A stretch of DNA of 64,000 nt from Haliovirga abyssi (GTDB lineage: Bacteria; Fusobacteriota; Fusobacteriia; Fusobacteriales; Haliovirgaceae). A model generated the notes under the pieces. That model did no database searches and was not told where the DNA came from. It saw nothing but the letters and a program-made list of their open reading frames with translations. A program made the position numbers and the translations under genes. Below are positions 14,439-37,010 of the stretch, one piece after another. The first letter of the stretch is position 1; each line of letters starts with the position of its first letter. The stretch spans positions 1,670,637 to 1,734,636 of the forward strand of contig NZ_AP027059.1 of assembly GCF_030295325.1 (NCBI RefSeq), given 5' to 3'.

Positions 14439-16718
14439 ACTAAATTTCCAATATGGATGGATTAAAATTCATTGTATATAAATACTCCTGCTTGCCCATT
14501 TTCATTTACATTCCAATATGGCTAGATTAAAATTCTGCAAAATGCTTTAACTCCAACTCATTAGTAGTATTTACATTCCAATATGGCTAGATTAAAATAT
14601 GTCAGTAGATGAAACTTTTGTAAGTCCAGTTCCTTTATTTACATTCCAATATGGCTAGATTAAAATGTCTATAGTTGCAATTGTTGTATTTGTTTCTGTT
14701 ATTATTTACATTCCAATATGGCTAGATTAAAATTTGATTTATTTGTAAAATTAGGTTTAATGCAGAAGAATTTACATTCCAATATGGCTAGATTAAAATC
14801 AAGCTTATTATGTATATTATCTATTTCAGATATAACATTTACATTCCAATATGGCTAGATTAAAATTGCACTAAAATAATACTTGACTTACCCAATGTAA
14901 CTAATTTACATTCCAATATGGCTAGATTAAAATAAAACTTTAATCATTTAAAACACCCCCAAAAAATTTTATTTACATTCCAATATGGCTAGATTAAAAT
15001 AGAATTATCATCATCTACATCTGCTATACTAACATAATTTACATTCCAATATGGCTAGATTAAAATAAAAAGGTATTTAAAAATAAAAAAGAATTTGATA
15101 ATATTTACATTCCAATATGGCTAGATTAAAATAGCAACTCTTATATTAGAAGATAAAATTGTTAATTTATTTACATTCCAATATGGCTAGATTAAAATTT
15201 TTGTAGTTATTATATATAAAGCAATTGATTTATATTTACATTCCAATATGGCTAGATTAAAATTTTGTCTCTAAATTAATTGTGAAATCATCTAATGTAA
15301 TTTACATTCCAATATGGCTAGATTAAAATAGCTTTAATAATTCCATTTTCTTTTGATTCAATAAAATTTACATTCCAATATGGCTAGATTAAAATGATGT
15401 ATTAGTAAATGATATAGATTGGTCTGTGAGAGATTTACATTCCAATATGGCTAGATTAAAATGCTTGTTTTGTGCTCCCCATTCCTGTAGTATGTGCATA
15501 TTTACATTCCAATATGGCTAGATTAAAATATAAGTCCGAGAACTTGCCTCTAATTGATTTTTGATATTTACATTCCAATATGGCTAGATTAAAATTAAAA
15601 TTTTAGTCATCAACTCATAATCCGCATAAAGATTTACATTCCAATATGGCTAGATTAAAATTTAAATGACAGTGAAAATAACTAACTGGAAAGACCAGAT
15701 TTACATTCCAATATGGCTAGATTAAAATATTAATAAAAGAAACTAAAAAAAAAAATGAAAATATTTACATTCCAATATGGCTAGATTAAAATCCAGCTTT
15801 CATCTTTCCATCTGTATAATGTTGTCAAATTTACATTCCAATATGGCTAGATTAAAATTGTGTATGAGTATTTTTTTTATATTATGTTAAAAGATTTACA
15901 TTCCAATATGGCTAGATTAAAATGGCGACGTCATTAATGTTGGCTCAAATGCATTCATTATTTACATTCCAATATGGCTAGATTAAAATTCCTCAAGGAA
16001 AAAAAGCCACAGCTGAATATTAACATTTACATTCCAATATGGCTAGATTAAAATTGTAAATGGAAATTATACCCCACAAAATTGTAGAATTTACATTCCA
16101 ATATGGCTAGATTAAAATTTATTCCTTCCATTTTTATCACTCCTTTTGTTTGATTATTTACATTCCAATATGGCTAGATTAAAATTCAGCAAGAACCACT
16201 ACAATAGATGAGGTATTTTTAATTTACATTCCAATATGGCTAGATTAAAATCCCAACAACTCTTTTCATATAGCTTTTTACTCCCGCATTTACATTCCAA
16301 TATGGCTAGATTAAAATTTAACACCATTAATATATTCTGTTAAAGATTGCTCAATTTACATTCCAATATGGCTAGATTAAAATTTTTTTATATTTTATAA
16401 AAAGAGTAAAAACTCATAGATTTACATTCCAATATGGCTAGATTAAAATTTAAAGATGTGTATGATAAATATATTATATCTGAGTTATTTACATTCCAAT
16501 ATGGCTAGATTAAAATAGTTGCCAAACTTTTTTTCTCACTTTTTTTCATTGATGTTCCATTTACATTCCAATATGGCTAGATTAAAATTCTTAGAGGAGA
16601 ACCATTTAAAAAACAAATCCAAAATTTACATTCCAATATGGCTAGATTAAAATTTAGAATTAACAGGCGAGGAAAAAGAGTATGAAAAATTTACATTCCA
16701 ATATGGCTAGATTAAAAT
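14439..16718 (-). CRISPR. CRISPR array 1: 35 repeats, 34 spacers
   Basis: The 30-bp repeat on the plus strand starts ATTTACATTCC and ends GGCTAGATTAAAAT. 34 copies are essentially perfect and one degenerate copy is at the left end (14439-14468). Spacers are about 34-38 bp. Repeat decay on the left, the conserved leader and promoter on the right, and the GGAATGTAAAT 3' end on the minus strand (as in clostridial I-B repeats) all show transcription from right to left. No cas genes adjoin the leader; the III-B module ends next to it. The spacer at 15530-15565 is identical to one in array 2. Confidence 0.99.
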
Positions 16719-16905: not shown

Positions 16906-17062
16906 TTTTATTTAAAATTCAATTCTTAATAATATTATAGCATATGCCAATTTAATATTCAATGCTGTCAACATTAAATTAAGTGATTTTTATTTTATCT
17001 TCTTAATTTATGGCATTCCACAAAATTATAATATTATCATCTCTCTTAAACTAACAAATAAT
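16906..17062. other. AT-rich gap between leader 1 and the four-TM gene
   Basis: No coding frame, strong hairpin or repeat is visible apart from AT-rich text. Confidence 0.4.
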
Positions 17063-17815
17063 TTATTTTATTTTATATTTTTCTTTCATTATATTCCATT
17101 TTTCAATTAAAATAGGGTTTAATTCATTATAAATTTTACTATCTAAAAATAATTTATAATTTGAAATACTACATTCATATTCTATCCATAAATTTAAAAT
17201 TTGAGGTTCATATTTCCCTATTTCTTCTATTTTTAATTCATTAAATAACATTATAATTCTATTAAAAATATCTTCTGTATTTTTATTATAATTCCAAACA
17301 TTAATTGTTTTCATTATAAATATCTTCGACAAAAACAGCTGCAAGATTGGTAAAGCTATCTGTGAATTTGCGAACCCTAAAACAGAAAATCCTATTATTA
17401 TAATTCCAGGAATTATAGAATTATATAAAACTTTCTGCTTCATTTTTTCAGATATTTCTTTAGAAAAAAAAGTATTTTCAAATAAATTAACTATGGTTTT
17501 ATAAAGTCCTTCTTCTATTTCTTCATTATCATAATATCCTTCTGAATTTTCATAGTGAAGTTTACTTCCAAAAGAGTTATCTATAAAGTCTCTCCTTCTT
17601 ATTATTTCTCCTTTTTCTCTATAAAAATCAATTAAATACTTTAAAACTCCTAAAACAATTATAAACAAAATACTTAATATATTAACCAATATATCTAGTT
17701 TAAGAAATATAAAAATTATCGATAAAAAAATTATTAATATAAATATTTTATTATACCATCTATCTAAATATAAAGATTTCATAAAAAAATTTGTTTGTGG
17801 CGATGATTTTGCCAT
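17063..17815 (-). CDS. Four-TM membrane protein at the end of the Cmr operon; candidate effector
   Basis: A 250-residue protein with two hydrophobic hairpins: TM1-TM2 at about residues 23-64 and TM3-TM4 at about 130-168. They are separated by a charged cytoplasmic stretch with RRRDFIDNSFG; a soluble, acidic ~80-residue C-terminal part follows. I do not recognise it securely. The layout resembles S-4TM/SLATT-type pore-forming effectors linked to nucleotide-signalling defence systems; that is an analogy from topology. The ATG at 17815 follows AAGGAGGTAAAAAA, 20 nt after the cmr6 stop, so it is clearly the last gene of the III-B operon. It may be a second membrane effector or a partner of the CorA-like protein. 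Confidence 0.75.
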   Translation of the reverse strand: MAKSSPQTNFFMKSLYLDRWYNKIFILIIFLSIIFIFLKLDILVNILSILFIIVLGVLKYLIDFYREKGEIIRRRDFIDNSFGSKLHYENSEGYYDNEEIEEGLYKTIVNLFENTFFSKEISEKMKQKVLYNSIIPGIIIIGFSVLGFANSQIALPILQLFLSKIFIMKTINVWNYNKNTEDIFNRIIMLFNELKIEEIGKYEPQILNLWIEYECSISNYKLFLDSKIYNELNPILIEKWNIMKEKYKIK

Positions 17816-17835
17816 TTTTTTACCTCCTTGTTTCA

Positions 17836-18618
17836 TCATTCAAATTGCCCATATCCTACATTTGTTTTTGCTCCAATACCTAAGTCTAATAATATTTCTT
17901 CGAATAAAGATTTTTTTTCCTCTTCTCCCAAGATACCTTCTTTTAAATCAAATTTAAATTCAAAAACAGCTCCTGGAGCAACTTTTAAAAATCGCAAAGG
18001 TTTTGGAGCTTTTAATGGGTTATCTCCATGTGGACATAAATAATCATCTTCAAATATTTTATCTTTTACTTCTACTATTTCTGCATCATAAAAGATATCT
18101 CGATCTTTCATTGGTATTTTTTCTCCACCTTTTATACCTTCAAATATTTCTAATTCAATCTCTTTTAATTCTTCAAAAGAAAAATCCTTACTTAAAATCT
18201 CATTAATATACTCTCTTTTTCCCTCTCTTTTTTCCTCATCATCTTTTTCAGAAGGAAATACACTCCTTAATACACCTTTTATAGATGAACCTGGAATCAC
18301 AGGTAATCCTGTAGTATAATCAAAGAAAAAACCAAGTTTAAAATCTTCTTCCAATCCACTATCATGATTATATCCACTTCCAATTAAAAGACCTGGATAA
18401 GTTATTTTTAATTTAAAAGTTTCTAAGTCTTTAACTTCTTCTTTATTCGTTTCTGTATTTAATTTATGGCTTAAAATATTTTCAATAACTTTATCTTCTC
18501 CTTCTTTACCATCGTTTAACTTTTTAGCATTTCCTTTACAAATCTCTAATAATAATTTTTCCTTATTTTCATATAGCTTTTTATAAAATAGATATCCTAC
18601 ATTTCCCATTTCACTCAT
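17836..18618 (-). CDS. cmr6: Cmr6, type III-B RAMP subunit
   Basis: A 260-residue RAMP-fold protein of the Cmr complex backbone end. Family marks are the LLIGSGYNHD segment, the conserved TGLPVIPGSSIKGVLRS near residue 100, and the C-terminal glycine loop GIGAKTNVGYGQF. Start choice is ATG 18618, which overlaps the cmr5 stop as ATGAGTGA, with GGTGATAAAG just upstream. It is expected to cap the Cmr4/Cmr5 filament near Cmr1 and contact target RNA. Confidence 0.92.
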   Translation of the reverse strand: MSEMGNVGYLFYKKLYENKEKLLLEICKGNAKKLNDGKEGEDKVIENILSHKLNTETNKEEVKDLETFKLKITYPGLLIGSGYNHDSGLEEDFKLGFFFDYTTGLPVIPGSSIKGVLRSVFPSEKDDEEKREGKREYINEILSKDFSFEELKEIELEIFEGIKGGEKIPMKDRDIFYDAEIVEVKDKIFEDDYLCPHGDNPLKAPKPLRFLKVAPGAVFEFKFDLKEGILGEEEKKSLFEEILLDLGIGAKTNVGYGQFE

Positions 18619-19063
18619 CTTTATCACCTATTTTCTCATTTTCATCAATCTGCTTATAAACTCTTATTGCAAGTTTTACCGCAATAGAGGCATTTATTAT
18701 ATCTTTTTTCTTTATTTTTGCATCAGTTCCATTGTTTTTTATTAGTTCCTCTAATAAAATATCATCTTTTGAATTTTTTTCTGTTTTTATTTCCTTAGAT
18801 TTTAAGTCATATCCTATTAAATTTCCTATTATTCTCATCAGTTTTTTTCTATTTATTGCAACATTATCAGTTTTGCTAGTTTCCTTTCTCTCATAAAAGG
18901 CAACTGCTGGAATAAGTCCGCTTTGGATTATTGAAGCTCCAAAATTTGAAATATAACCTTTTAATTCTTTAGGAACACCACCTTTATTTTTTATATCAAA
19001 CTCTTTTTCTAATAATTCCATAGCTTTGGATATTAAATTTTCTATAACTTTTTTATCACTCAC
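18611..19063 (-). CDS. cmr5: Cmr5, type III-B small subunit
   Basis: A 150-residue, mostly helical, lysine-rich protein placed between cmr4 and cmr6 in the usual order. The segment YISNFGASIIQSGLIPAVAFYE is typical of Cmr5. It forms the inner filament of the effector along the crRNA-target duplex. The start is a GTG at 19063 that overlaps the cmr4 stop as GTGAGTGA with GGTGATAAAA upstream; a GTG three codons earlier is less likely. Its C-terminal GDKDE residues encode the ribosome binding site of cmr6. Confidence 0.9.
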   Translation of the reverse strand: MSDKKVIENLISKAMELLEKEFDIKNKGGVPKELKGYISNFGASIIQSGLIPAVAFYERKETSKTDNVAINRKKLMRIIGNLIGYDLKSKEIKTEKNSKDDILLEELIKNNGTDAKIKKKDIINASIAVKLAIRVYKQIDENEKIGDKDE

Positions 19064-19847
19064 TTTTATCACCTTCTTTCGTTTTTAACTTTTTAATTTT
19101 ACAAGCTCCATATCCAATAGTTACATTCCCACCAATATGGATTAATTCACCTCCATTTTCATCAAAAAGTATTTTTTCTTCGAATTTTTCCTCTAAAGTT
19201 TTACCTTCAACTTTTTCTTCAATTCCTTTATCTATTCCAAAATAAAATAGAGATTTTCTTGGAACAATTTCTTCATACCATAAATTTTGGCTTTCACCAT
19301 TTTCAAGGTGATTTCTTGCAATCACCGGAAGTTCTGACACTAATTCTTTAAAATCCTTATATTCTAGTATTAATATTTCTTCCTCTCCTTTTTCTTTATC
19401 TATATCTTTAATGAGTTTTTTATATTTAATATACTTTTTAGTTTTATATCCTTCTACTTCTTTCTCTTCTTGAAATTCTTCATTTTTAAAATCTTCAGTC
19501 TCTTTGTAAAACAATTCCATCATCTCTTTAAAGTCATCTAATATTTCTTGACAAGTTACTAAATAATAAGGTCTATCTAATGCTCTTGCTGGAATAGCCA
19601 ATAGTTTTGCTGGAAAAAATTTATATTTTCCTTTTTGAGTTTCATTTCCAAAACCCTCTATTAAATCATCACCACAATGTTCTTTTAATGCTCCTTTTAA
19701 ACTTGATGAATTTATTGTAGGAAATCCCGTAATTACATCTCTTTGTACTCTAGTATCTATTAAACCAAAATCATTATCTCCACTTCCTACATGTAAATTT
19801 GTAAAACACTCTATTAAATATATATCTTTCTTGATTTTTATACACAT
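19056..19847 (-). CDS. cmr4: Cmr4, type III-B backbone RNase subunit
   Basis: A 263-residue RAMP protein. The N-terminus CFTNLHVGSGDNDFG runs into LIDTRVQRDVITGFPTI and SSSLKGALKEH, the Cmr4 signature. The Asp of the IDTRVQRD loop (D31, or D26 just before it) is the expected catalytic residue for cutting target RNA every 6 nt. The glycine-rich end GGNVTIGYGACKI closes the RAMP fold. The start overlaps the cmr3 stop by one base (TAATG). Confidence 0.93.
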   Translation of the reverse strand: MCIKIKKDIYLIECFTNLHVGSGDNDFGLIDTRVQRDVITGFPTINSSSLKGALKEHCGDDLIEGFGNETQKGKYKFFPAKLLAIPARALDRPYYLVTCQEILDDFKEMMELFYKETEDFKNEEFQEEKEVEGYKTKKYIKYKKLIKDIDKEKGEEEILILEYKDFKELVSELPVIARNHLENGESQNLWYEEIVPRKSLFYFGIDKGIEEKVEGKTLEEKFEEKILFDENGGELIHIGGNVTIGYGACKIKKLKTKEGDKSE

Positions 19848-20983
19848 TACTTTATCCCTCCCGTAATATAATTATATCCTATCACTTTTATATGTTTTTT
19901 ATTAATAATTTCTTCTATTTTTTGTGATCCTTTACTAACATAAATTACACTTCCCCTTTTAAGAAGAAAATAAGGTTTAACTTTTTTCCCATCATTTGTC
20001 TTATAGTCATAAACGAAATTTTTAAAAAATTGTTTTTCGCCTAAAATAAAATCTACCTCTGTTTTTAATTTATAAAATTCATCTTCATTTAATATAATGT
20101 CACTTATGCAAACTATTCTTTCTTTAGATGTTTTATAATTTTCAACTAATCCTTCAAAATCTAAACTACTTTTAGTAATTTCAAGTTTAAATGGTTTCCC
20201 TTCTGCTCCAATATAAACTGTAGTTTTATATGATTCTTTCTCACTAATTTCAAATATATCTTCTTCCAATTTTACAAAAAAACAAAATTCAAAATTATTT
20301 TTTAATTTATAATACAGTTGCCTATAATATCCATTTTCTGTTACTTTAGTATCAATACCTATTCTTTCATCTTCCTCAAAAATATCATCAAACAAATATT
20401 TTTTCTTAAATGAGTTAAAACTTATTATTTTTCTATTTAAACCATTTTTAACTTCATAATTTTTTAAATTTGGAATAAAATTTTTATAATCTTTATCTGC
20501 TTTACTATCTTTATTTTCTGAATTAAAATAACAATTTCCTTCTGATTTTTCAAACTTTAATCCATAATCTAAAGGAGCTGGAGTAAAGATATTTCCATCT
20601 TTGTATAAAAATATAGGAGATATATTTTTTATTTTACCAAATCCATCTTCATTTTTATGCCCTTCTGCATTAAAACTCCCATTCCCTATTAACTTAACAA
20701 TCTCTTGAGAATTCTTTGAATACTCTCGTCTATCTTCTTTATAATATCCAGTTACAATTAATATTTCTCTTCTCAACATCCCTAATATTGTAGTTTGTTG
20801 AGGAAAATATTCAGATTTTACATAATAATTTTTTATTGATTCTCTACCACTTGAATAATTAAAAGTTTCTCTTCCGGAAAAAAAATAGGAGTCTAATGGT
20901 TTTAATCTAACAAAATATATTTTTTTAGAAATAGTTTTGGTCCTCTTTTTTTTTGATTTATTTTTTTTCCTATTTCTCCCCAT
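19847..20983 (-). CDS. cmr3: Cmr3, type III-B Cas5-like subunit
   Basis: A 378-residue protein. After a ~20-residue Lys/Arg-rich tail it carries FVRLKPLDSYFFSGRETFN, the hallmark start of Cmr3, and TILGMLRREIL. It holds the crRNA 5' handle and binds Cmr2. The ATG overlaps the cmr2 stop by one base. The basic N-terminal extension is longer than usual and may contact RNA. Confidence 0.92.
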   Translation of the reverse strand: MGRNRKKNKSKKKRTKTISKKIYFVRLKPLDSYFFSGRETFNYSSGRESIKNYYVKSEYFPQQTTILGMLRREILIVTGYYKEDRREYSKNSQEIVKLIGNGSFNAEGHKNEDGFGKIKNISPIFLYKDGNIFTPAPLDYGLKFEKSEGNCYFNSENKDSKADKDYKNFIPNLKNYEVKNGLNRKIISFNSFKKKYLFDDIFEEDERIGIDTKVTENGYYRQLYYKLKNNFEFCFFVKLEEDIFEISEKESYKTTVYIGAEGKPFKLEITKSSLDFEGLVENYKTSKERIVCISDIILNEDEFYKLKTEVDFILGEKQFFKNFVYDYKTNDGKKVKPYFLLKRGSVIYVSKGSQKIEEIINKKHIKVIGYNYITGGIK

Positions 20984-22530
20984 TATTCATCACCTCTTTC
21001 CGTTAAAAACATTAAAAATCTTAATAATTTTAATAAATTTTCTGTTTCTTCTTTTTTCCCATAATTAATAACAAGTTGTAAAATTTTATTAATTTCTCTA
21101 ACTAATCCATTTATTTGCGTTTTATCTGTATGAATCTCTTTTTTAAAATTATTAATAAAAAAATTAGTTAATTTCTCTTCATCATTTTGTATTAATTTTA
21201 ATAATTCAATTTGATTTTCAAGAGTATAAATAACTCCCTTTATTAATTTTTTATCTTTATTATCATAGTTAAATATTTTTAAAAACTCTTGAAACTTCTC
21301 TTTTTCAGCTTTGCTTAAAATAAATTCAATTGGTTTATTTCCACCTTTTAAAAGTTTTACTGCTGTAGCATTTTTACCTTTATATTTTTTCGCTTTTTCA
21401 AATAAAAGCGTTGCTGAATTATTGTATGCTTCATATAATGGATATTTATAATAATTTATAGTAATACCAAATGACAAAGTTCCTTTTTTGTTTGTTTTAC
21501 CTTTTAAATTTTTTAATTTTTCTTCAAATATGTTAGACAAAGCAGTTGTTAATTCAAAAATATTTTTATATTCATTACAACTACTATTTATAATTGGAGC
21601 AAAAAAGAGTAAATCATCTCCACCTGCAAATATAGGCAAGCCCCCATAAATCTCAATTTCTTCTACTGATTCTTTTGCAAATTCAAATAAAATATTAGAA
21701 AAATTTTGATAATCTTCTTTAACTTTAAGTTCCTTAATTATAGCACCTATTCCATCTCCATCTGCTCTTACTACTGCATAATACTTATGGTGTTTTTTAA
21801 ATTCAGCTGACATACTTTCTTTAAATATTTCATAACACTTCTCATCATCAGGATATTTATCATCCTCTTTGCCTTTATTAATTTCTTTATCTATTTCTTC
21901 AACTTTTTCCAAAGACTTTTTATAAATATCAGTAAAAGCAATTTCAGGAAGTGATTTTATTTCATACCCTTCTTCAAAAGCATCTTTTTCTAAAAAATCA
22001 TTACTAACATCATTAATAAAATCAAATAAATAATCTTTATTTTCTTCAAATTGCATAAAACATATTTGTGGTTGTAATTCCATTACATCTAAATATTTAG
22101 ATATCTCAAGAATTATATTATCTTTTGAATCAAGTTCTTTTTCCAGTGCATAAAAATTAATATATGTATCTAAATATTTTATAAATTCTTCTTTTGTTTT
22201 TTTATCTAAATTATCTTTAAACGCATTCTTTGCAAACTCTTCAAAAACACTATCTTTAATTTCTACTAAATCTTTTAATTTAAAATCTTTTTTTACTTCA
22301 ATAATTAATCTATCATGAAATAAACCTGCTTTTTTAGGTTTTGTATAAATAGAATCATCTTTTGAATACGGCAAAATTAATTCTATTCTATTGTCTTGTT
22401 TTAATTTCCAAATAATTTTTTTCATAATATATGAAAACATATAACTAGTACGCCATGCACTACGTGTTTTTTTTGCTCTTGATATTGTATCTACTATTGG
22501 TCCTATCGTTACTCCTATATATTTAGTCAT
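20983..22530 (-). CDS. cmr2: Cmr2/Cas10 without HD domain, GGDD cyclase intact
   Basis: A 515-residue Cas10. It starts directly with the first Palm-like region (MTKYIGVTIGPIVDTISRAK); no N-terminal HD nuclease domain is present and length is well below HD-containing Cas10. The second Palm domain has RADGDGIG near 256 and the catalytic FAGGDDLLFF with GGDD at 303-306. The protein is therefore expected to make a nucleotide messenger when target RNA is bound, but not to cut ssDNA. This N-terminus and the CorA partner resemble the Bacteroides fragilis Cmr2 group that joins ATP and SAM into SAM-AMP. The product here is inferred. Confidence 0.93.
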   Translation of the reverse strand: MTKYIGVTIGPIVDTISRAKKTRSAWRTSYMFSYIMKKIIWKLKQDNRIELILPYSKDDSIYTKPKKAGLFHDRLIIEVKKDFKLKDLVEIKDSVFEEFAKNAFKDNLDKKTKEEFIKYLDTYINFYALEKELDSKDNIILEISKYLDVMELQPQICFMQFEENKDYLFDFINDVSNDFLEKDAFEEGYEIKSLPEIAFTDIYKKSLEKVEEIDKEINKGKEDDKYPDDEKCYEIFKESMSAEFKKHHKYYAVVRADGDGIGAIIKELKVKEDYQNFSNILFEFAKESVEEIEIYGGLPIFAGGDDLLFFAPIINSSCNEYKNIFELTTALSNIFEEKLKNLKGKTNKKGTLSFGITINYYKYPLYEAYNNSATLLFEKAKKYKGKNATAVKLLKGGNKPIEFILSKAEKEKFQEFLKIFNYDNKDKKLIKGVIYTLENQIELLKLIQNDEEKLTNFFINNFKKEIHTDKTQINGLVREINKILQLVINYGKKEETENLLKLLRFLMFLTERGDE

Positions 22531-23971
22531 CTTTATCACCTACTTTTATAAATTCACCATTAATACTATTAATTAAAAAATCATATAAGTTAAACTCACT
22601 CTGTTTAGGGGTTCTACATTTCAAAAAATCTTTATCTTCATAAATAACTTCCCATTCTTTCCCTTTTTTCTCTTTATACTGTAAAATAAAGTTAAAGAGA
22701 ACATCATATAAATATGATGGAATTTCATTTGGAAGCAAATATATTTTATTATCTATAATTTTAAACTTAATTGGTGATTGAAATCTTTCAATTGAGTCAT
22801 TCGAAATCTTAAAAGCTATTTTTTTATTGTTTTCTTTTAATCCAAATTCTATATGTTCTGCTAATCCTAATAAAGCTCTTACATATCTGTACTCCTTAAT
22901 TTCAGAATGAAAACTCCTATCATTATCTCCTTTCAATTGTTCATAATATAATGGATATTTTTCTTTCAATTTCTGTTTAAGAATCGCCTTTTCCCAACGA
23001 TAATTTTCTCCAATATATTCTACTATCTTAGATTTTTTATATCCTCTAAAATTTTTGCCTGATTTTAAAATATTATAGAAATTATTTACATATTTAAGAG
23101 GCTCATTATCTTCTTTAGTAAAATATAAATTGTAATTTTTTCTAATAATTTCATCTACTTCATATTTATATTCAAAATATTTATCTTCTATTGAAAATTT
23201 ATACTCTTCTGGGGTAAAAGAACCAAACCCTTTACTTTGTCTTGTTCCAAAATTTTCATAAACAAAAACATAAGGTAACACATTTTTTATTAGCTCCAAT
23301 ACTTTTTTATCAAAACTAAAGAACTCTATTTCAATTTCTCTATCTGAATAAAAAAAAGCAATACTTTCTCCAAAATAAGAAGTATTTTTTATATCATAAA
23401 CTTCATATGAATTTTTTTTAATAACTTTAAGTTTATATTTTCCTATTTCAGTTTTATTATTAACAGGAAAATTTTTCTCAACAATCTCTTTTGTATCATA
23501 AAATAATTCTTTAAATTCATCCTTTAAATACGATTCTTTGATAAATTTATCAATTTTAGATTTTATTTCTGTTCCCCTTATTTGAAGTTGTTTTTGAGAT
23601 ATAGGTATATAGTCTTTTAAAACTTTTGATTCTTTGATAAATTTAGTTATCCTGTTTTGAATAATTTCAATTAACTCTTCATGTTTTGAAAAAATTTTAA
23701 AATCTAAAAAATTAATTTCTTTATTTTTTAATTCTCCAGAAATATCTTCTGGAATCTTTTTTTTATATGACAATGAAAAATCTAATTTTTTTGTTATCCT
23801 TTTAGTTTTCTTATTTATTTTAGAAAATTTTTTATATTCAACTTCCTGATTTCTAAATTCTTCTTTTAGAATATATTCCATTATTTCTTTATCTAAATTG
23901 AATACTATATTTTCGCTTTGAAAATGTATCAGCGGTGTATGTTGTTTTAGTTTAACAATTAACTTTGCCAT
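22523..23971 (-). CDS. cmr1: Cmr1-like RAMP subunit
   Basis: A 482-residue protein beginning LIVKLKQHTPLIHFQSE, with LQIRGTEIKSKIDKFI near residue 130 and the glycine loop FGTRQSKGFGSF near 250. These are Cmr1 features: the HTPLxHFQ and RGTEIK patterns are typical of the long Cmr1 variants. It is nearly 500 residues, with a large C-terminal extension that I cannot assign. It should bind the 3' end of the crRNA in the complex. Its C-terminal GDKDD encodes the ribosome binding site for cmr2, with an 8-nt overlap. Confidence 0.87.
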   Translation of the reverse strand: MAKLIVKLKQHTPLIHFQSENIVFNLDKEIMEYILKEEFRNQEVEYKKFSKINKKTKRITKKLDFSLSYKKKIPEDISGELKNKEINFLDFKIFSKHEELIEIIQNRITKFIKESKVLKDYIPISQKQLQIRGTEIKSKIDKFIKESYLKDEFKELFYDTKEIVEKNFPVNNKTEIGKYKLKVIKKNSYEVYDIKNTSYFGESIAFFYSDREIEIEFFSFDKKVLELIKNVLPYVFVYENFGTRQSKGFGSFTPEEYKFSIEDKYFEYKYEVDEIIRKNYNLYFTKEDNEPLKYVNNFYNILKSGKNFRGYKKSKIVEYIGENYRWEKAILKQKLKEKYPLYYEQLKGDNDRSFHSEIKEYRYVRALLGLAEHIEFGLKENNKKIAFKISNDSIERFQSPIKFKIIDNKIYLLPNEIPSYLYDVLFNFILQYKEKKGKEWEVIYEDKDFLKCRTPKQSEFNLYDFLINSINGEFIKVGDKDD

Positions 23972-23989
23972 AATATCCCCCTTTCTTTT

Positions 23990-25573
23990 TTATGCTATTA
24001 TAAATATATAATATAATATAAACAATATTATTATAGATGTTAAACTCCACTTTTCATTTTGAAATTTTTTTGCTATTTTATTAATTATATTTTCTTTATT
24101 TTTTTTTGATTCATATACCAAATTATACAAAATTAAAATAGTTATTATAAAAGGAATAATTACAAAAAATCCCCCTTTTATAAATAGTTCATACTTATTA
24201 TTAATATCTAATATATCTTTGAATCTATCCATTCCAATAATAGAATTAATTAAAGATGCTATTCCTATAGCTCCTCCTAATATTGTTATAATATTTAATC
24301 TTAATTGGAGCTTTCTGTCTTGCTTTAATCTTTTTTCACTCTCAAGCATAGAATAATAATTATATAATTCATAAATTTCTTTCTCTAATTCTCTTACAGC
24401 ATCATTAATTCCCATAATATCTCGGACCATATTGTAAATTTCTATTCCTTGTTCTTGTGCTGTCACTTCCCTAAAATTCATTAAATTAAGAAATTCTAAA
24501 TACTCTTTTTGTAATCTTCTAATGCTCTCAATATTCTCTTCCTTCATAACTTTTGATATTTTATTTTTAAATTTTAAAATAGTTGCTCTTTGCATTAAAA
24601 CAATTATCATTATTTGATAATACATTGTTTTTATATGAGATAATAATATATTTTTAGGGAACCATCTTTCATTCGTAGCTACAACAAATGAATATCTGCT
24701 TATTCCAAATAAAGTTCCTTCTTCTATCCACCTATCATAACTATATTTTTTTAAATACTCTTTTATCATATTTTTACTCTTCAAAGAATTAAAGTTCCCA
24801 TCTATAAATAAAAATTTTGCCCAATCTTCATTTGAAAAATAATTATATTCTTTACTGCTATTATTATACTTTTTTAATACCTCTGAAAATTCATCATTCC
24901 CATACCAACAAATAGTAAACATTCTATCATCAATTAAGGGTTTAATTTTATTACTTAATTCATCTCCTATTAGTTTTCTTATTGTTTTAGAAATTCTTAT
25001 ATTTTTACCATTTAAATAATTATAAAAATCTTCAGAAATTATATTTTCAATTTCCAATTCTTTTGCTAAAAAATTAGCTTTAGCTGATTCTACAGGAATA
25101 AATTGTGGATAAATTCTTCTCCCAAAATCATTTATTTTTAAAATATCTGTTCTCTCTTCATACTTATAATTTTCTAAATGAAATAAAAGTATTCCTACTC
25201 CTGTTTTAAATATTCTTATAGCAACACCTGAAATTTCAAGCTCATATTCCTTTTCATTTAAAATTTTTATTATATATTTAGCATTTTCCTTTATTTGTTT
25301 ATTTATTAAATAAACACTTAAATCCAATTTATCAATTTTATCTTTTTGATTATATAAAAGTTTTTGAACAGCGGGATAAAAATATACAAATTCATTATAG
25401 TTAAAAATTTTATTTTTATCTTTTTGTTCTCCTTCTACATCAAAAGGGATATATTCCCATTTATTTTTTTCTAAAATTTTTACTGTCTTTTTTAAATCAA
25501 ATTCATCTTCTTCAATAGTAAAGGGAAACATAAAAGTATGATGGCTAATTATATCTTTATCATTTTTTGCCAT
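23990..25573 (-). CDS. CorA-like membrane effector of type III-B CRISPR
   Basis: A 527-residue protein with a large soluble N-terminal part (~1-420, including a helical coiled stretch from ~330 to 420) and a membrane part at the C-terminus: TM at ~428-447, ~463-487 and ~509-526. This is CorA-like topology. Canonical CorA has GMN after TM1; here GMD (447-449) occurs. Such proteins are fixed partners of HD-less Cmr systems and act as the membrane effector activated by SAM-AMP in B. fragilis. It is the first intact gene of the III-B operon, 18 nt before cmr1, with a strong AAGGAGGTGATCG site. Ligand and pore activity here are inference. Confidence 0.85.
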   Translation of the reverse strand: MAKNDKDIISHHTFMFPFTIEEDEFDLKKTVKILEKNKWEYIPFDVEGEQKDKNKIFNYNEFVYFYPAVQKLLYNQKDKIDKLDLSVYLINKQIKENAKYIIKILNEKEYELEISGVAIRIFKTGVGILLFHLENYKYEERTDILKINDFGRRIYPQFIPVESAKANFLAKELEIENIISEDFYNYLNGKNIRISKTIRKLIGDELSNKIKPLIDDRMFTICWYGNDEFSEVLKKYNNSSKEYNYFSNEDWAKFLFIDGNFNSLKSKNMIKEYLKKYSYDRWIEEGTLFGISRYSFVVATNERWFPKNILLSHIKTMYYQIMIIVLMQRATILKFKNKISKVMKEENIESIRRLQKEYLEFLNLMNFREVTAQEQGIEIYNMVRDIMGINDAVRELEKEIYELYNYYSMLESEKRLKQDRKLQLRLNIITILGGAIGIASLINSIIGMDRFKDILDINNKYELFIKGGFFVIIPFIITILILYNLVYESKKNKENIINKIAKKFQNEKWSLTSIIILFILYYIFIIA

Positions 25574-25999
25574 ATTCGATCACCTCCTTTAAAATTTTTT
25601 CTATTTCTAAATTAAATTGATTTTCTCCTACTTCAAAATATCCATTTTCAGTCCCACCAAAATATATTTTATTTCTATATTTTTTATAATATCTTCCTCC
25701 AATCCCTCTTGCTTTTATTCCATAATATATAAACTCTCTGTCAGTACATATATAAATCTTATTATTTTATCTGTAATTGTAGAAAATTTATTAGTTAATA
25801 ATGATTTTTATTAACATTTTCATTATAATGGTCTATTCACATATATTCAAAATTACAGTTGATATCTTCTTTTAATTCTATGCCAATAATTAATTTATCT
25901 TTATTTTTTTATTATTTCTTTATAGTCACTTAATTTTACTTTACAACTTAAATTGTTATAATAAAAAATTTCATTTTTATTAGTTAATATTTTTTTCAT
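25560..25999 (-). pseudogene. Decayed ORF upstream of the CorA-like gene
   Basis: Protein-like text runs from an ATG at 25999 (MKKILTNKNEIFYYNNL...) but breaks at several stops and frame changes. It resumes as DKLIIGIELKEDINCNFEYM and ends in an open stretch (IYICTDREFIYYGIKARG... FGGTENGYFEVG) with a TGA that overlaps the CorA-like start. Joined, it would be a protein of about 140 residues. I do not recognise it. Position as the first gene of the operon suggests it once belonged to the III-B system; the last ~63 codons remain open and provide the ribosome binding site of the next gene. Confidence 0.5.
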
Positions 26000-26116: not shown

Positions 26117-29042
26117 TTATATTATCCAGTATGGCTAGATTAAAATAAAATCTTATAGTTGCTATATCTTGATTCCATTGATTTACATTCCAATATGGTA
26201 AGATTAAAATAGAAAAAACTACAAAATTCAAATGGATTTATTATATTTACATTCCAATATAGCTAGATTAAAATAAAAACAAATTTCAAAATGCCAGACA
26301 GAATATTAATATTTACATTCCAATATGGCTAGATTAAAATTTACGATGATAGTGTCATAATCCCTAACGATACAGTATTTACATTCCAATATGGCTAGAT
26401 TAAAATAAATGTATTGTTTATTGATGGAGAAATTCAAACAGAATTTACATTCCAATATGGCTAGATTAAAATTTACCTCTTTATTCATGATTTTATAAAA
26501 TAAAGTTTTATTTACATTCCAATATGGCTAGATTAAAATTCAGATAAAAAATCTTGATATTTTCCTTTAAAAATATTTACATTCCAATATGGCTAGATTA
26601 AAATCATTCTATCAACTCCAATTCTAAGTATATAAATATAATTTACATTCCAATATGGCTAGATTAAAATGCTGTGATATTTGTATTTATATTTAAATTG
26701 AAATAATTTACATTCCAATATGGCTAGATTAAAATTAAAGATTTTAAAATATCTAAATCATTGCTGCTATAATTTACATTCCAATATGGCTAGATTAAAA
26801 TGATACAATAGCTTCTTTTAATACTCTTCATTTAGGTTAATTTACATTCCAATATGGCTAGATTAAAATTTACACTTAATTGTATCACTTCCTGATACTA
26901 TTGTATTTACATTCCAATATGGCTAGATTAAAATTACAATTAGTGTTCCATTTAATTCTCCTATTTCTATATTTACATTCCAATATGGCTAGATTAAAAT
27001 GTTTTGAAATTTTCAAAGATAGTAGCTATTATATAATTTACATTCCAATATGGCTAGATTAAAATTTCAATTCTATAATAAATACAATCAGATGCCCCTT
27101 CATTTACATTCCAATATGGCTAGATTAAAATATATTAAATCTCTGAAAAAATTCCCTGATTCTACATTTACATTCCAATATGGCTAGATTAAAATAAAAA
27201 ATAAAAGGAGAGTGATAAAAAATGATAATTAGATTTACATTCCAATATGGCTAGATTAAAATTATCTAAAAATTCAACAACAGCCCCACCATTAAAAATT
27301 TACATTCCAATATGGCTAGATTAAAATCTTATTGTATCTACAATGTCATCGTGCTCTGCGTTATTTACATTCCAATATGGCTAGATTAAAATTGATAGAA
27401 ACACCTTTGTCACCATTAGGTAAAATGGATTTACATTCCAATATGGCTAGATTAAAATAAAGTTAACCGAAGACATACTGGATCTATTATAATATATTTA
27501 CATTCCAATATGGCTAGATTAAAATTAAAGTTATGCAACAAGTATTCGGGCCTGGAGCTGAATTTACATTCCAATATGGCTAGATTAAAATCAAAACGAA
27601 AAAGAGGTCAAAATATTTAAAATTAATAATTTACATTCCAATATGGCTAGATTAAAATAATGGTATTTCAAAAGATGAAGCTATGTACTTGCTAATTTAC
27701 ATTCCAATATGGCTAGATTAAAATACCTTCTGTTGATGAGTTACAGATTCCTTTTGAATATTTACATTCCAATATGGCTAGATTAAAATTAGAAAAACTA
27801 TATTAGAATATGCACCAAATTCAAGATTTACATTCCAATATGGCTAGATTAAAATCTACAATAGCAAAAGCTAGTTTGCCTTTAGACTATGATTTACATT
27901 CCAATATGGCTAGATTAAAATTTTGTTGCAGCTCCAAGGTTAATTATTGCATTATTTATTTACATTCCAATATGGCTAGATTAAAATATATTTAGAGATA
28001 TTGTTATAGTTGCATTAATATGAATTTACATTCCAATATGGCTAGATTAAAATAGAAACAGAAGATGACTCTGGAATACTATTTGATATATTTACATTCC
28101 AATATGGCTAGATTAAAATGGAACAAGAACAGCTGTAGGGGTAGAAAATAATGTATTTACATTCCAATATGGCTAGATTAAAATTAAAAATAGAAAAGTT
28201 GAAGTAATAGACATAAAAATTTACATTCCAATATGGCTAGATTAAAATTAAAAATAGAAAAGTTGAAGTAATAGACATAAAAATTTACATTCCAATATGG
28301 CTAGATTAAAATAAAGATACAGATTATTTGTAGAAAATATAAATTTGAGATTTACATTCCAATATGGCTAGATTAAAATGTGGACGATTAATGATATGAC
28401 AGCCCAAGAAAATGTATTTACATTCCAATATGGCTAGATTAAAATAAAAAAGAGAAAAGCGGTAAGGCAGAGATAGCAGAAAATAATTTACATTCCAATA
28501 TGGCTAGATTAAAATCATTTTTTTAAATTCTTCTTCATCCCCTCCTCTATCATTTACATTCCAATATGGCTAGATTAAAATTAAATGTAGAAGAAACACC
28601 ATATAGGATAAAATAATTTACATTCCAATATGGCTAGATTAAAATAAATGCAAAAAGGTTTTAAAAATGCATTGCAAAGCTTATTTACATTCCAATATGG
28701 CTAGATTAAAATTTACATCTTTCAGTTATAGCGACACAACAGAATACAATTTACATTCCAATATGGCTAGATTAAAATATAAGTCCGAGAACTTGCCTCT
28801 AATTGATTTTTGATATTTACATTCCAATATGGCTAGATTAAAATAACGGCTTATAAAGGCTATGTTGTTTATTTTGCTTTATTTACATTCCAATATGGCT
28901 AGATTAAAATTTATTAATAATTTTGATAGTATTTAAACATTTCATTATTTACATTCCAATATGGCTAGATTAAAATGCCATCTCAATTTCTGTAGTATGC
29001 TTAAATCCCTCAATTTACATTCCAATATGGCTAGATTAAAAT
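26117..29042 (-). CRISPR. CRISPR array 2: 45 repeats, 44 spacers
   Basis: It uses the same 30-bp repeat as array 1. The three leftmost copies (26117, 26181, 26245) carry substitutions and mark the old, distal end; the remaining 42 are uniform. Spacers are about 33-38 bp. Transcription is right to left from a leader next to cas2. One repeat-spacer unit is tandemly duplicated (spacers 28185-28218 and 28249-28282 are identical), and the spacer at 28779-28814, fourth from the leader, also occurs in array 1. Confidence 0.99.
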
Positions 29043-29242: not shown

Positions 29243-29527
29243 CTATAAAAAATTAGTTGTTTTATCATCTTCTATTCCTAAAAAATCTTTTCTTAACCAT
29301 TTCCCTGAATCCTGTTTAAAAACAATAACAGAATCCATATCTTTTCTTATATATTTTGCTAATTCGTAACTCATTTCAATATACTTTGCATTTGATATCT
29401 CACCTTCAAAAACAGAATTTTGTATGTGATGAAGATACCTTTTGCAAGTTTTAAATATCCTCCTTAAAGCTTTAGAACCCTCTTTTGTGTCTGTAAATAT
29501 TATATCATATACAAGTATAATATACAA
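29243..29527 (-). CDS. cas2: Cas2 adaptation nuclease-fold protein
   Basis: A 94-residue Cas2 of the I-B type. The core LVYDI beta strand, KALRRIFKTCKRYLHHIQNSVFEGE and the DSVIVFK segment are family hallmarks. The chosen start is a TTG at 29527 giving MYIILVYDI, five bases after the cas1 stop and preceded by GGTGGTGATA; a longer frame from a TTG at 29542 overlaps cas1. It forms the Cas1-Cas2 integrase and is the last gene before leader 2. Confidence 0.95.
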   Translation of the reverse strand: MYIILVYDIIFTDTKEGSKALRRIFKTCKRYLHHIQNSVFEGEISNAKYIEMSYELAKYIRKDMDSVIVFKQDSGKWLRKDFLGIEDDKTTNFL

Positions 29528-29532
29528 TAATA

Positions 29533-30531
29533 TCACCACCAAATTTTAAATCCATCATATTCCTCCTCCCCGCTTAAGTGCTTAACTAATTTATATAATT
29601 CCAATCTTATTAAATGTTTATATGTAACATCTCTTTTTAATTTTTTATGTCTTATTGTTTTATTTAATCTCTCATCATACTCTTTTAAAATCTTTTTTCT
29701 TGCACCGTCTTTCATATACATATAATTAATTTCCTCAACAAAATCTTTTTCTGTAATAATATTTTTATTTAATAAATAAAATATCATTCTATCTCCAATT
29801 AATGGTTTAAAAACTTCTGCAATATCAAGGCTTAAAGAAAATCTTCTTTCTCCAGGCTCATGTAAAAAACTTACAACTGGAGAAAGTTGAGTATGATATA
29901 TTTCTCCTAATACTGTTGTATATATTAATGTATTTACAAAAGACATAAGAGTATTTATCATATTATCAGGTGGTCTTCTTACTCTTTTGGTAAAATTTAT
30001 ATCCTGATTAATAATTGTATTAAAAGTTTTATAATAGGTTTTTCTAATATTACCCTCTTCTCCCATTATTTCTGTTATAGTTTTACATTGTTCTATCTTA
30101 TTTCTGATTTTTGATATTTCATCTATATATATTTCCAAATCTTTATCTCTTTCATTATAATACCTTATATTTCTATGAATATTAAAAGAAGCTGTATTTA
30201 TTATCTCTTTTGCAATCTCAACTCTTTTTTCATTATCAATATAGTGTTTAACTTGTTCTACAAATAAATATCCAGAATTAAGTTTTTCTCTTGGATAAAA
30301 ACTACCTGTATAAAATCCATAATAATTAAAAAAATGTAGTATCACTCCATTTTGTGATAGAAAATTAATAAGTTTACTGTTTAAGTTTAGCTCTCCCAAA
30401 ATATAAATTACATCCACATCTTCTATAGGTATATAATGATTTTCTCCATTAATTATAAAATTCAAACTATTGTCTTTTCTTTTTAAAGTTCCACTTTTTG
30501 AAAGGTAATAATTTCTTTTTATTTTAAACAC
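29533..30531 (-). CDS. cas1: Cas1 integrase, type I-B
   Basis: A 332-residue Cas1. The N-terminal beta domain reads YYLSKSGTLKRKDNSLNF; metal ligands are expected at E159 (MGEEGN), H224 (FLHEPGERRF) and D236 (SLDIAEVFKP). It catalyses spacer insertion at the leader-repeat border. The frame begins with a GTG that directly abuts its AAGGGG sequence; the better-spaced codon after this site is ATA, so the true start is uncertain by three codons. Confidence 0.96.
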   Translation of the reverse strand: MFKIKRNYYLSKSGTLKRKDNSLNFIINGENHYIPIEDVDVIYILGELNLNSKLINFLSQNGVILHFFNYYGFYTGSFYPREKLNSGYLFVEQVKHYIDNEKRVEIAKEIINTASFNIHRNIRYYNERDKDLEIYIDEISKIRNKIEQCKTITEIMGEEGNIRKTYYKTFNTIINQDINFTKRVRRPPDNMINTLMSFVNTLIYTTVLGEIYHTQLSPVVSFLHEPGERRFSLSLDIAEVFKPLIGDRMIFYLLNKNIITEKDFVEEINYMYMKDGARKKILKEYDERLNKTIRHKKLKRDVTYKHLIRLELYKLVKHLSGEEEYDGFKIWW

Positions 30532-30553
30532 CCCCTTAGAAATAGCTTAAAAT

Positions 30554-31057
30554 TTAAATATAACACAATTCGTAATATGCACATTTTTTACAAATTTTAC
30601 TATCTATTTTTTTAGGTATCTCTTTTCTTTTTATTATATCTTTTATTTCAATCAGAATGTTTTCAATTTTTTCTTCATCTTTTTCAGTTAAAACTATTTT
30701 TTCTCTCTTTCTTAATAATGGATAATCAATTATTCCATCCATATTATCCACTCCATTTTTCTTTAAATAATATTGATAATATCTTATTTGCCAATGCCCT
30801 GCTTCTTCTATAGCTTTAGATTTTTTTATCTCGTGAATTACTTTATATCCCTCAATAAAATCAATATTTATTGTGTTGTCTATCATTATATGTTTTTTCT
30901 CTTTTTTATAGCTGTTTTCATCTATTGATTTTCCAATGGATACATTTTCACTATTATTTTCCATAGATATATTTTTTGAAAAATACCAAAGTTTCCTTTT
31001 GCATACAAAATAATAGTAAAACATTACACCTGTTATTTTTATGTTTTCTTGTTGCAT
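30554..31057 (-). CDS. cas4: Cas4 adaptation exonuclease
   Basis: A 167-residue RecB-like Cas4 (Dna2-type). An N-terminal Cys (FVCKRKLWYF) and a C-terminal CKKCAYYELC cluster form the iron-sulfur site. The nuclease core has IDFIEGYKVIHEIKKSK with the motif III E-x-K. It trims prespacers and helps set PAM choice in I-B adaptation. The ATG at 31057 follows AAGGTGAC. A 180-bp gap with a dispersed element separates it from cas3. Confidence 0.94.
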   Translation of the reverse strand: MQQENIKITGVMFYYYFVCKRKLWYFSKNISMENNSENVSIGKSIDENSYKKEKKHIMIDNTINIDFIEGYKVIHEIKKSKAIEEAGHWQIRYYQYYLKKNGVDNMDGIIDYPLLRKREKIVLTEKDEEKIENILIEIKDIIKRKEIPKKIDSKICKKCAYYELCYI

Positions 31058-31076
31058 TGGAGTCACCTTCTTTTTA

Positions 31077-31224
31077 GTAATGGCTTAAAAATAACAATCC
31101 AATTTTGTTTTAAAAGGCTCAAGGTTCTTTTATGAAAAGCACATAAAAAACTACGCCTAACATATGCAGTGCTTCAACCATTTTTATAACAAAATATAAG
31201 AAATTTATTTTTTAAATGTTCCTT
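31077..31224. repeat. AGGAACG dispersed element, long copy
   Basis: It starts with AGTAATGGCTTAAAAATAAC and ends with TTATTTTTTAAATGTTCCT; the two ends are imperfect inverted repeats of each other and match the 101-bp copy at 38979-39079. The 148-bp length comes from extra central sequence. It lies between cas3 and cas4. Confidence 0.55.
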
Positions 31225-31236
31225 AGCAAATTAATT

Positions 31237-33447
31237 TTAAAAACTCCTTGAATCAAAATCAATATTTCTATCAACTTTTTTCTCAATTGTTACTCCCTCT
31301 TTTTCTGAATATTTACAATCTAAAATTGGAATTTCCATATATTTTCCTATTTTCAATTTTTCATTTAATTGTATTCCATATATTTCATTTCTTCTTATAT
31401 CAACTGTATAATCTTTCAGCTCATATATTTTTTTTATCCTATTTTCTGTAAATTCTTTCCTATTTTCATTATTATAGATTGCTCGGTTTATATCTAAAAT
31501 TAATTCATCAATCGCATCTTTTCTTTCTTCGTAAATAGTTTTTGGAATAATAGTAATATTTTCTATATCTCTAAATCTCTTTCTAACTTCTTTTTTTGAT
31601 AATTCATATTCAGGTATAGTTTTTATATAATCTATATTGGCTAAAACTTTTTTATAATATTCCGTATTTTTCAACTTTTCAGTTGTATATATTTCTCCAA
31701 TAATATCTAATTTATCCTGCTCTGTTATTTTCCCATCTAAATTTTTCAAAGCTTCTTTTGAAAATTCAAAGATATCTTTATCAATAACATAATTTACTCC
31801 ACTACATTTATTCTCACCACCATCAAATACATAACAATTATAACCATTTTTATCAAAAGCTCTTTTTCTATAGCATCTTCCAAATCTTTGAAATAATCCA
31901 TTAATATCAGAAAGTTCTGTAAATAACAAATCGAAATCAATATCAAGAGATGCTTCTACTACTTGAGTTGCAACCCATATTCCAATTTCATTTGAATTTT
32001 TATCTCCCATACGCATAATATTTTTTTCTTTATTCTTTCTATCTCTTTTTATAAATTTTGAATGTAATAAATTAATTTTTACTTTCTTGTCAATTAATTC
32101 TTTATTATTAGATAATTCTTCAAATATTTCTTGAGCTTTTCTAACTGTATTACAAATTACCAAAACTTTATTTTTATTATACTTTTCTATTATTTCTCTG
32201 CTATCAATTTCACTATTTCTAACTTTAATACTATGCCTTATCAAAGAATTAATATAGGGCTTTTCTCCAGTAATAAAATTTATTCCTTCTTTCTTCATTA
32301 AATCAATAATTATTTGTGGAAGTGTTGCTGTTAATATTGCAAATTTTCCACCTATTTTATCAATATAGTATAATCCTAATATAAGATAAGCTAATAAATC
32401 TGGTGAATACATTTGAATTTCATCAATAACCACTTTAGAGTATGATAAAGTAGCAAGTTTGGATTCAAAATCTCTATATCTAAATACAAAATCAAATATT
32501 TGATCAAGTGTACATATTGTTAAAGGTAGCGATAATTGTTTTGTTTTATTATAATATTCTTCTATATTATCACCATTATTTTTATTTTCAAGATATTTAC
32601 TATATGTATCAGAATGAAGTAGCCCTATTCTCTCTTTATTTTTAACAATTTCGTTGACTACTCTTTTATAAATCTCATTTATAGCCGTTTTTAAAGGTAA
32701 TGTAAAAAAGCCTTTATTATTACCAATCCATAATAATCCTGCTTCTGTCTTTCCCATCCCTGTTTGGGCTACTGCTATTATATTTTTATCTAAATTATTT
32801 TTCATAAAATTTTGTAAATCATTCCAATTAAAATTGTTTTCTTTTTTGAATTTATCTAAACTATCATTTAAAAAATCATTTTTCACTTCAACGTCAATAC
32901 CACCACTTGCTGCATAATCAAGACGATTTAATAGCCCTTTTATTTTTACATATTCAAGAAAATAATCAGAATCTCCATATGTTCTTTCATTTGCAAAATA
33001 TTTTGCACTAATTTTTTTTATTTTTTTTATTTCTAATTTATCATATTTAAAATTAACCGCTTCTTTTTTTAGTAATTCTACTTCTTCATTATAATTTTCT
33101 GCATTATAATCTCCTCTTTCATGATGCCTTGCCACTGCTTGAGATATAATTTTAATCTCATTATTTGTAAAATTATATTCCTCTTTTAATTCTTTTGCAT
33201 TTATAAAAGCCAAGCTTAATAAATTATGTGCTATTTCATCTTTATGTTTCTTTATTTTTTCAATTTTATCTTGAAATTTTCTATTTATTTTCCCTAGATC
33301 ATGATAAATACAAGAAATTTTTAAGGCATTCCAATTTATATCTAAATCAGAATAAACGCTTTTTATAATTTCAAAATTTCTAAGTAAATTATCTGTATGT
33401 TCTTGTATTGTTTCTCTTGGATTGGATTTTGCAAGATAATTATTCAT
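31237..33447 (-). CDS. cas3: Cas3 HD nuclease-helicase
   Basis: A 736-residue Cas3. The N-terminal HD domain shows EHTDNL and IYHDLGKINRKF (H49, D50). The SF2 helicase has Walker A VAQTGMGKTEAG, the DEIQ box VVIDEIQMYSPD, a TATLP motif and LFQRFGRCYRK as motif VI. It is recruited by Cascade to unwind and degrade target DNA. The ATG at 33447 follows TGGGGGAATAT; an upstream in-frame start adds 29 residues encoded across a strong palindrome and was rejected. Confidence 0.95.
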   Translation of the reverse strand: MNNYLAKSNPRETIQEHTDNLLRNFEIIKSVYSDLDINWNALKISCIYHDLGKINRKFQDKIEKIKKHKDEIAHNLLSLAFINAKELKEEYNFTNNEIKIISQAVARHHERGDYNAENYNEEVELLKKEAVNFKYDKLEIKKIKKISAKYFANERTYGDSDYFLEYVKIKGLLNRLDYAASGGIDVEVKNDFLNDSLDKFKKENNFNWNDLQNFMKNNLDKNIIAVAQTGMGKTEAGLLWIGNNKGFFTLPLKTAINEIYKRVVNEIVKNKERIGLLHSDTYSKYLENKNNGDNIEEYYNKTKQLSLPLTICTLDQIFDFVFRYRDFESKLATLSYSKVVIDEIQMYSPDLLAYLILGLYYIDKIGGKFAILTATLPQIIIDLMKKEGINFITGEKPYINSLIRHSIKVRNSEIDSREIIEKYNKNKVLVICNTVRKAQEIFEELSNNKELIDKKVKINLLHSKFIKRDRKNKEKNIMRMGDKNSNEIGIWVATQVVEASLDIDFDLLFTELSDINGLFQRFGRCYRKRAFDKNGYNCYVFDGGENKCSGVNYVIDKDIFEFSKEALKNLDGKITEQDKLDIIGEIYTTEKLKNTEYYKKVLANIDYIKTIPEYELSKKEVRKRFRDIENITIIPKTIYEERKDAIDELILDINRAIYNNENRKEFTENRIKKIYELKDYTVDIRRNEIYGIQLNEKLKIGKYMEIPILDCKYSEKEGVTIEKKVDRNIDFDSRSF

Positions 33448-33460
33448 ATATTCCCCCAAT

Positions 33461-33500
33461 ATATTATTGTGAAACGACTTATGTCGTCCCACAATAATAT
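33461..33500. promoter_or_regulatory. 40-bp near-perfect palindrome before cas3
   Basis: ATATTATTGTG...ACGAC and GTCGT...CACAATAATAT pair over 18 bp with two central mismatches and a 4-nt loop, ending 13 bp upstream of the cas3 ATG. It may be an operator or an mRNA hairpin that controls cas3 separately from the genes upstream. Confidence 0.55.
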
Positions 33501-33625
33501 TAGATACATTAAAAAAATCTATAGATACATTCATATTTTTAAAACAAATGACTCCTTAATTTTTTTAAGAACCTTATTAAATTATTTCTAACGCTATGTG
33601 TTTCTAATGCCTTTATTTCCACATA

Positions 33626-33668
33626 TCTCTTAGATAAGAGAATCCTCCAACAAGGGAGGTTCTTGAGA
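33626..33668. terminator. Double hairpin between cas5 and cas3
   Basis: TCTCTTA-ga-TAAGAGA (33626-33641) is followed at once by GAATCCTCC/GGAGGTTC (33640-33662). It lies ~35 nt after the cas5 stop and may partly terminate the cas6-cas8-cas7-cas5 transcript. No long T-run follows. Confidence 0.4.
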
Positions 33669-33700
33669 TTTTAGTTTTTTAGCATTTAACACGCCTATTA

Positions 33701-35320
<1,620 letters not shown>

Positions 35321-35321
<1 letters not shown>

Positions 35322-36991: not shown

Positions 36992-37010
36992 ATTACCTCA
37001 CCTCCTTCCA

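Follow-up and report, generated by a model that had tools for sequence, protein, structure and literature searches.

We analysed a 64,000-nt stretch of the genome of Haliovirga abyssi (Fusobacteriota; contig NZ_AP027059.1), called the window below; coordinates are those of the window unless another locus is named. Positions 17063-25573, on the minus strand, hold a complete type III-B CRISPR operon in the order corA-cmr1-cas10-cmr3-cmr4-cmr5-cmr6, ending with a gene for a four-transmembrane-helix (4TM) protein of the type found in cyclic-oligonucleotide-based antiphage signalling systems (CBASS). Just upstream of corA lies the relic of a gene for NrN, a DHH phosphodiesterase. The original prediction for this locus, in which a Cas10 without an HD domain signals to a CorA-like protein through a conjugate of S-adenosylmethionine (SAM) and AMP (SAM-AMP) or a related messenger, held up as far as it went, but it overlooked both the CBASS-type 4TM gene, which lies within the interval it covered, and the decay of NrN. 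It is these two features that set the locus apart.

The operon opens with corA (23990..25573), which encodes a CRISPR-associated membrane effector of 527 aa (PADLOC CorA, E=4e-115) and stands, as had been proposed, two genes upstream of cas10 and before cmr1. It is followed by cmr1 (22523..23971; PADLOC Cmr1, E=1e-55), cas10/cmr2 (20983..22539; PADLOC Cas10b, E=3e-68, and TIGR02577 above cut-off), cmr3 (19847..20983; PADLOC Cmr3, E=1e-33, and Pfam Cas_Cmr3), cmr4 (19056..19847; TIGR02580 above cut-off), cmr5 (18611..19072; TIGR01881 above cut-off, PADLOC E=5e-27), cmr6 (17836..18627; TIGR01898 above cut-off) and the 4TM gene, listed as 258 aa (17063..17839; PADLOC PDLC00726, E=1e-40, and PDLC00719, E=1e-30). 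The NrN relic, at about 25563..25999 on the same strand, was recognised with the DHH_CorA model, tblastn, a hidden Markov model (HMM) search and a shuffle control.

The nature of the messenger is most readily approached through Cas10. The 518-aa protein gives no HD match, Cmr2_N starting directly at residue 7, and it keeps a GGDD motif at residues 306-309 counted from the GTG start, or at the previously reported 303-306 when counting starts from the ATG three codons further on. In the Cmr system of Bacteroides fragilis, Cas10 has D70 and E151 along its acceptor site, where they give SAM preference over ATP, while the Pyrococcus furiosus enzyme, which makes cyclic oligoadenylate (cOA), has N300 and R436 at these positions (PMC10600005). 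The closest PDB relative of the H. abyssi Cas10 is chain B of 9lq5 (E=1e-46). Because its residues 70, 151, 328 and 329 are D, E, D and D, in agreement with the published numbering, 9lq5_B was taken to be the B. fragilis Cas10. In an alignment of 26 sequences, the two pocket residues were D and E in all six CorA-linked Cas10s, namely those of H. abyssi (D76, E154), the genomes G035 and G053, Arcobacter, Haliscomenobacter and B. fragilis, and N and K in six of six III-B Cmr2 proteins from plasmid loci free of CorA (Aureispira, Runella, Allomeiothermus, Aeromonas, Thermus HB8 and Allochromatium). A distant fusobacterial Cas10 (L063) also has D in the column of B. fragilis residue 70, in a gapped and unreliable stretch, and was left out of this count. 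The tree built from the same sequences separates the two groups, with support of 100/99 for the CorA-linked proteins together with B. fragilis and 98/95 for the six CorA-free ones. The H. abyssi Cas10 therefore groups with the B. fragilis protein and not with the cOA-type Cas10s. Since pocket and tree agree, the assignment of this Cas10 as a SAM-AMP-type synthase, with SAM-AMP as its predicted product, is supported, and the SAM-AMP part of the system is a new member of an already known kind.

These results bear on the idea that Cas10 makes nothing but cOA and that both effectors respond to it. A CorA clade in Actinomyces that is associated with Csm6-2 is a proposed user of cyclic hexa-adenylate (cA6) (PMC11229360), which lends the idea some footing; D76/E154 and the clade shared with B. 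fragilis both contradict it, as does the absence of CARF proteins and ring nucleases from the profile matches of the operon's products, and we regard it as scarcely credible. A Panoptes system was considered separately and rejected. The match to mCpol (E=5e-5) comes from the palm domain of a complete Cas10 encoded in a Cmr operon, not from a stand-alone synthase, and the effector is 4TM, not 2TM-beta.

CorA itself fits the SAM-AMP assignment. The PADLOC CRISPR CorA models cover nearly its full length, and the predicted CorA-like C-terminal membrane segments are present as three hydrophobic helices (424-442, 468-486 and 509-527). Two residue pairs, R152-R153 and D215-D216, are invariant in the five CorAs aligned. 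They would correspond to R152/R153 and D219/D220 of the B. fragilis protein, matched by motif and spacing only; mutation of those residues abolishes immunity (PMC10600005). Together with the pocket and the clade of Cas10, the conserved pairs support the SAM-AMP-type reading. The soluble domain of CorA has no solved structure similar by sequence, and a profile comparison with the Mg2+ transporter CorA gave a match confined to the helical end (E about 0.002). CorA is, to our knowledge, the sole known effector for SAM-AMP. The CorA of G053 (L033 3174-4616) has a single predicted membrane helix before it ends, the sequence behind it containing in-frame stops, and is possibly decaying.

The gene at the other end of the operon has a different pedigree. 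The listed 4TM reading frame and cmr6 overlap by 4 nt, at the ATG of the one and the stop of the other; judged by the G035 copy, the true start is probably an ATG at 17815. The protein matched none of the type III accessory families in PADLOC and no solved structure similar by sequence, and it is 44% identical to a Clostridioides difficile 4TM protein that adjoins a SMODS CD-NTase. All nine relatives inspected outside the operon type described here adjoin a CD-NTase (C. difficile, Ligilactobacillus salivarius, Staphylococcus hominis, Hymenobacter, Priestia, Lactococcus pMRC01, Rhizobium, G119 and G083), and two of them also an E2-like gene. By context, therefore, the 4TM family is a CBASS effector. 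The closest CBASS relative, on the C. difficile plasmid pCd18_2 (L042 12016-13595), has a small SMODS CD-NTase as its partner and sits on a large plasmid with phage-type genes. A literature search on 4TM proteins with CBASS or type III systems, incomplete in coverage, found nothing.

In H. abyssi, the neighbours of the 4TM gene are cmr6 and a CRISPR array, with no CD-NTase beside it. The genome has a single SMODS match, at a distance of about 1.6 Mb, which raises the question of whether the 4TM gene simply hitch-hikes in the operon and works in a CBASS with a CD-NTase encoded at another place. This seems very improbable. The distant CD-NTase is preceded by a membrane-protein gene of its own, the 4TM gene overlaps cmr6 in a conserved position, and G035, without a SMODS match, carries the same operon-borne 4TM. 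At the distant locus (L097 7930-10159, about G000:C1:65929-68158), the gene for a 244-aa protein with a single membrane helix at its N-terminus precedes that for the 492-aa CD-NTase, and the two look like a CBASS pair of their own.

The H. abyssi genome (2.73 Mb, two contigs) is the sole member of its family among the 98 genomes of Fusobacteriota that we searched, and G035 belongs to another family of the order. A corA-cmr-4TM cassette with the same gene order was found there, with CRISPR arrays on both sides (L032 7950-8579 and 17713-18286). Between the two copies 4TM is the best-conserved operon protein, at 57% identity by tblastn as against 41% for CorA and 39% for Cas10. A CRISPR-type CorA occurs in three of the 98 genomes and 4TM in three, with both in two, in one operon each; co-occurrence in at least two genomes has a chance probability of about 0.002 (hypergeometric), a figure that leaves the sharing of one operon uncounted. 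The G035 genome has no SMODS CD-NTase match, and thus none to drive its 4TM. No further CRISPR-linked 4TM turned up among the places inspected in plasmid and phage searches, and scans of viral contigs for 4TM returned nothing but the C. difficile copies. Two further phyla, with 395 and 245 genomes searched, yielded a single copy, in a CBASS, although the 245-genome set, which gave no match, carries little weight. A scan of genome contigs with the CorA alignment returned a single locus, probably through patterns that were too specific, and a separate genome search was used in its place.

The second unusual feature lies in front of corA. A whole-genome search with the DHH_CorA model gave matches directly upstream of this gene (E=1.5e-11 and 2.4e-5). 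Translation, tblastn and HMM comparison resolved them into three pieces that are colinear, lie in different frames and are interrupted by stops: 25999-25904 corresponds to NrN residues 20-51, 25905-25819 to residues 53-81, with DHH changed to DHY and an in-frame stop, and 25775-25563 to residues 180-248. About 94 residues are missing from the middle. The relic scores 18.3 bits against 6.8 for the best shuffle, and none of 300 dinucleotide shuffles reached the real score. It can therefore be deduced that an ancestor carried NrN in front of corA and that the H. abyssi lineage has lost it. CorA in III-B systems is usually accompanied by NrN, DEDD or a lyase, either neighbouring or fused, a degrading enzyme being typical but not defining; for example, the CorA proteins of Arcobacter, Haliscomenobacter and G192 carry the enzyme as an N-terminal domain. 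Among the reading frames around the H. abyssi operon we recognised no intact SAM-AMP degrader, no profile search for lyase or DEDD enzymes, here or elsewhere in the genome, having been made. In G035 and G053, the sequence upstream of corA was searched for a relic like that of H. abyssi and showed none, and the G053 genome has neither a detectable NrN nor a detectable 4TM. The death of NrN implies that degradation is dispensable here, that an unlinked enzyme performs it or that 4TM has removed the need for it.

Loss of NrN could mean that the CorA branch as a whole is decaying and that 4TM is the working effector. The relic beside corA and the G053 CorA, cut short by stops after one helix, would suit such a course. 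In H. abyssi, however, corA is intact through all three C-terminal helices and keeps both residue pairs, and G035 retains a CorA, 41% identical, so that we consider this explanation quite improbable. Another possibility is that 4TM is not an independent effector but a partner or restraint of CorA that has replaced NrN. In E. coli, CorA is toxic by itself and less so together with NrN (PMC10600005), and in both of the NrN-less loci, that of H. abyssi with its dead gene included, 4TM is conserved at the operon end. Yet every other 4TM examined adjoins a CD-NTase, and PADLOC models the family as effectors. Moreover, what B. fragilis needs is degradation of SAM-AMP (PMC12255297), an activity hardly to be expected of a membrane protein with four helices, and a role as restraint is in our view unlikely.

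The reading we prefer, to which we give a probability of about one half, is that the locus is a CorA/SAM-AMP-type III-B system with two membrane effectors, which would have recruited a CBASS 4TM protein and no longer use NrN. With about the same probability, 4TM would sense SAM-AMP alongside CorA, or would sense something else made by a SAM-type Cas10, and the lineage would have given up the degrading enzyme. Foreign RNA bound by the Cmr complex would activate Cas10, as is established for the family, and the activated Cas10 would join ATP to SAM to give SAM-AMP, a step suggested by the pocket and the clade. SAM-AMP would then open CorA, as expected from B. fragilis, while 4TM would act as a second membrane effector switched on by a Cas10 product, most simply SAM-AMP itself, with Cas10 taking the place of the CD-NTase that is the normal partner of 4TM in CBASS. 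Both proteins would breach the membrane and so stop the infected cell. SAM-AMP is the most likely activator of 4TM, and this is the weakest step of the scheme.

It is at this step that a scheme with two messengers has to be weighed, in which SAM-AMP serves CorA while another Cas10 product, linear pppApA or cOA, serves 4TM. The relatives of 4TM act beside CD-NTases, and the products of CBASS CD-NTases are cyclic nucleotides. The B. fragilis Cmr complex yields some pppApA, and its D70N/E151R variant yields more (PMC10600005); in addition, the effectors NucC, TIR-SAVED and SAVED-CHAT are already common to CBASS and type III systems (PMC11229360). Set against this are the SAM-type pocket of the H. 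abyssi Cas10 and the great rarity, in the same survey, of loci that mix effectors for different messengers (PMC11229360), and we judge a second messenger possible but rather unlikely.

Several points weigh against a second SAM-AMP effector working without a degrader. The cassette was found in two copies only, and the 4TM tree is weakly resolved, the CRISPR-linked pair having support of 79/93. We found no report of a CBASS 4TM protein binding SAM-AMP, and AlphaFold2 models from two-sequence alignments were poor for pocket inspection (predicted local distance difference test, pLDDT, of 55 for 4TM and 35 for CorA). The reconstituted B. fragilis system conferred immunity only when a SAM-AMP-degrading enzyme was present (PMC10600005, PMC12255297), a requirement that its discoverers called hard to explain (PMC12255297). 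By analogy, a system lacking a degrader might not work.

The locus shares features with several known systems. The B. fragilis Cmr/CorA/NrN system (CorA-1 cluster; PMC10600005) resembles it in the HD-less Cas10, the pocket, the clade, the RR/DD pairs of CorA and cmr1-6, and differs in that H. abyssi has an NrN relic in place of an active partner, 4TM at the operon end and arrays that adjoin the cas6, cas1 and cas2 genes of a type I-B system. The III-B system of Clostridium botulinum with CorA and a SAM-AMP lyase (PMC12255297) likewise does without NrN. There a lyase replaces it, whereas no lyase-like gene was recognised at the H. abyssi locus, a lyase profile search of the genome not having been made. 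In the plasmid III-B loci of Arcobacter sp. AZ-2023 and Haliscomenobacter hydrossis, CorA comes first, followed by cmr1 and a SAM-type Cas10, as in H. abyssi; unlike in H. abyssi, an intact NrN is fused to the CorA N-terminus and there is no 4TM. On the CBASS side, the two-gene systems of C. difficile pCd18_2 and Lactococcus pMRC01 have the same 4TM family, at up to 44% identity, with a CD-NTase adjoining it, whereas the nucleotide synthase accompanying the H. abyssi 4TM is Cas10. Type III systems with NucC, TIR-SAVED or SAVED-CHAT (PMC11229360) also drive a CBASS effector from Cas10, but they are of the cOA type (cyclic tri-adenylate, cA3), while the H. abyssi Cas10 is of the SAM-AMP type.

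We found no precedent in the literature, within incomplete search coverage, for a CBASS 4TM in a CorA III-B operon combined with the loss of NrN. A published effector survey excluded candidates from loci in which an effector was already known (PMC11229360) and would therefore have missed a 4TM linked to CorA, and the 2025 CRISPR classification points to such exceptions as the place to seek new messengers and sensors (PMC12669027). If 4TM does sense a product of this Cas10, it would, as far as the literature shows, be the first effector of a SAM-AMP system besides CorA, and no CBASS effector would previously have been linked to a Cas10 of the SAM type. With NrN decayed but cas10, corA and every cmr gene intact, next to a conserved 4TM, the locus offers a natural test of two questions, namely whether SAM-AMP immunity is possible without degradation and whether SAM-AMP has receptors besides CorA.

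Two CRISPR arrays on the minus strand flank the operon with one and the same 30-nt repeat: array 1, downstream (14504..16718), has 34 repeats and array 2, upstream (26181..29042), has 44, and 76 of the copies are perfect. The host type I-B system of the original prediction is complete and follows array 2 on the same strand (29243..37769), in the order cas6-cas8b1-cas7-cas5-cas3-cas4-cas1-cas2 as assigned by NCBIfam matches; it presumably shares CRISPR RNA (crRNA) processing and adaptation with the III-B system. A 223-nt duplicate, 86% identical, stands at the right end of both arrays (16688-16910 and 29012-29234). These copies are probably CRISPR leaders, in which case both arrays would be transcribed leftwards. 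Outside the arrays, the window also contains a direct repeat of 154 nt, 93% identical, at 694-847 and 14118-14271, 13.4 kb apart.

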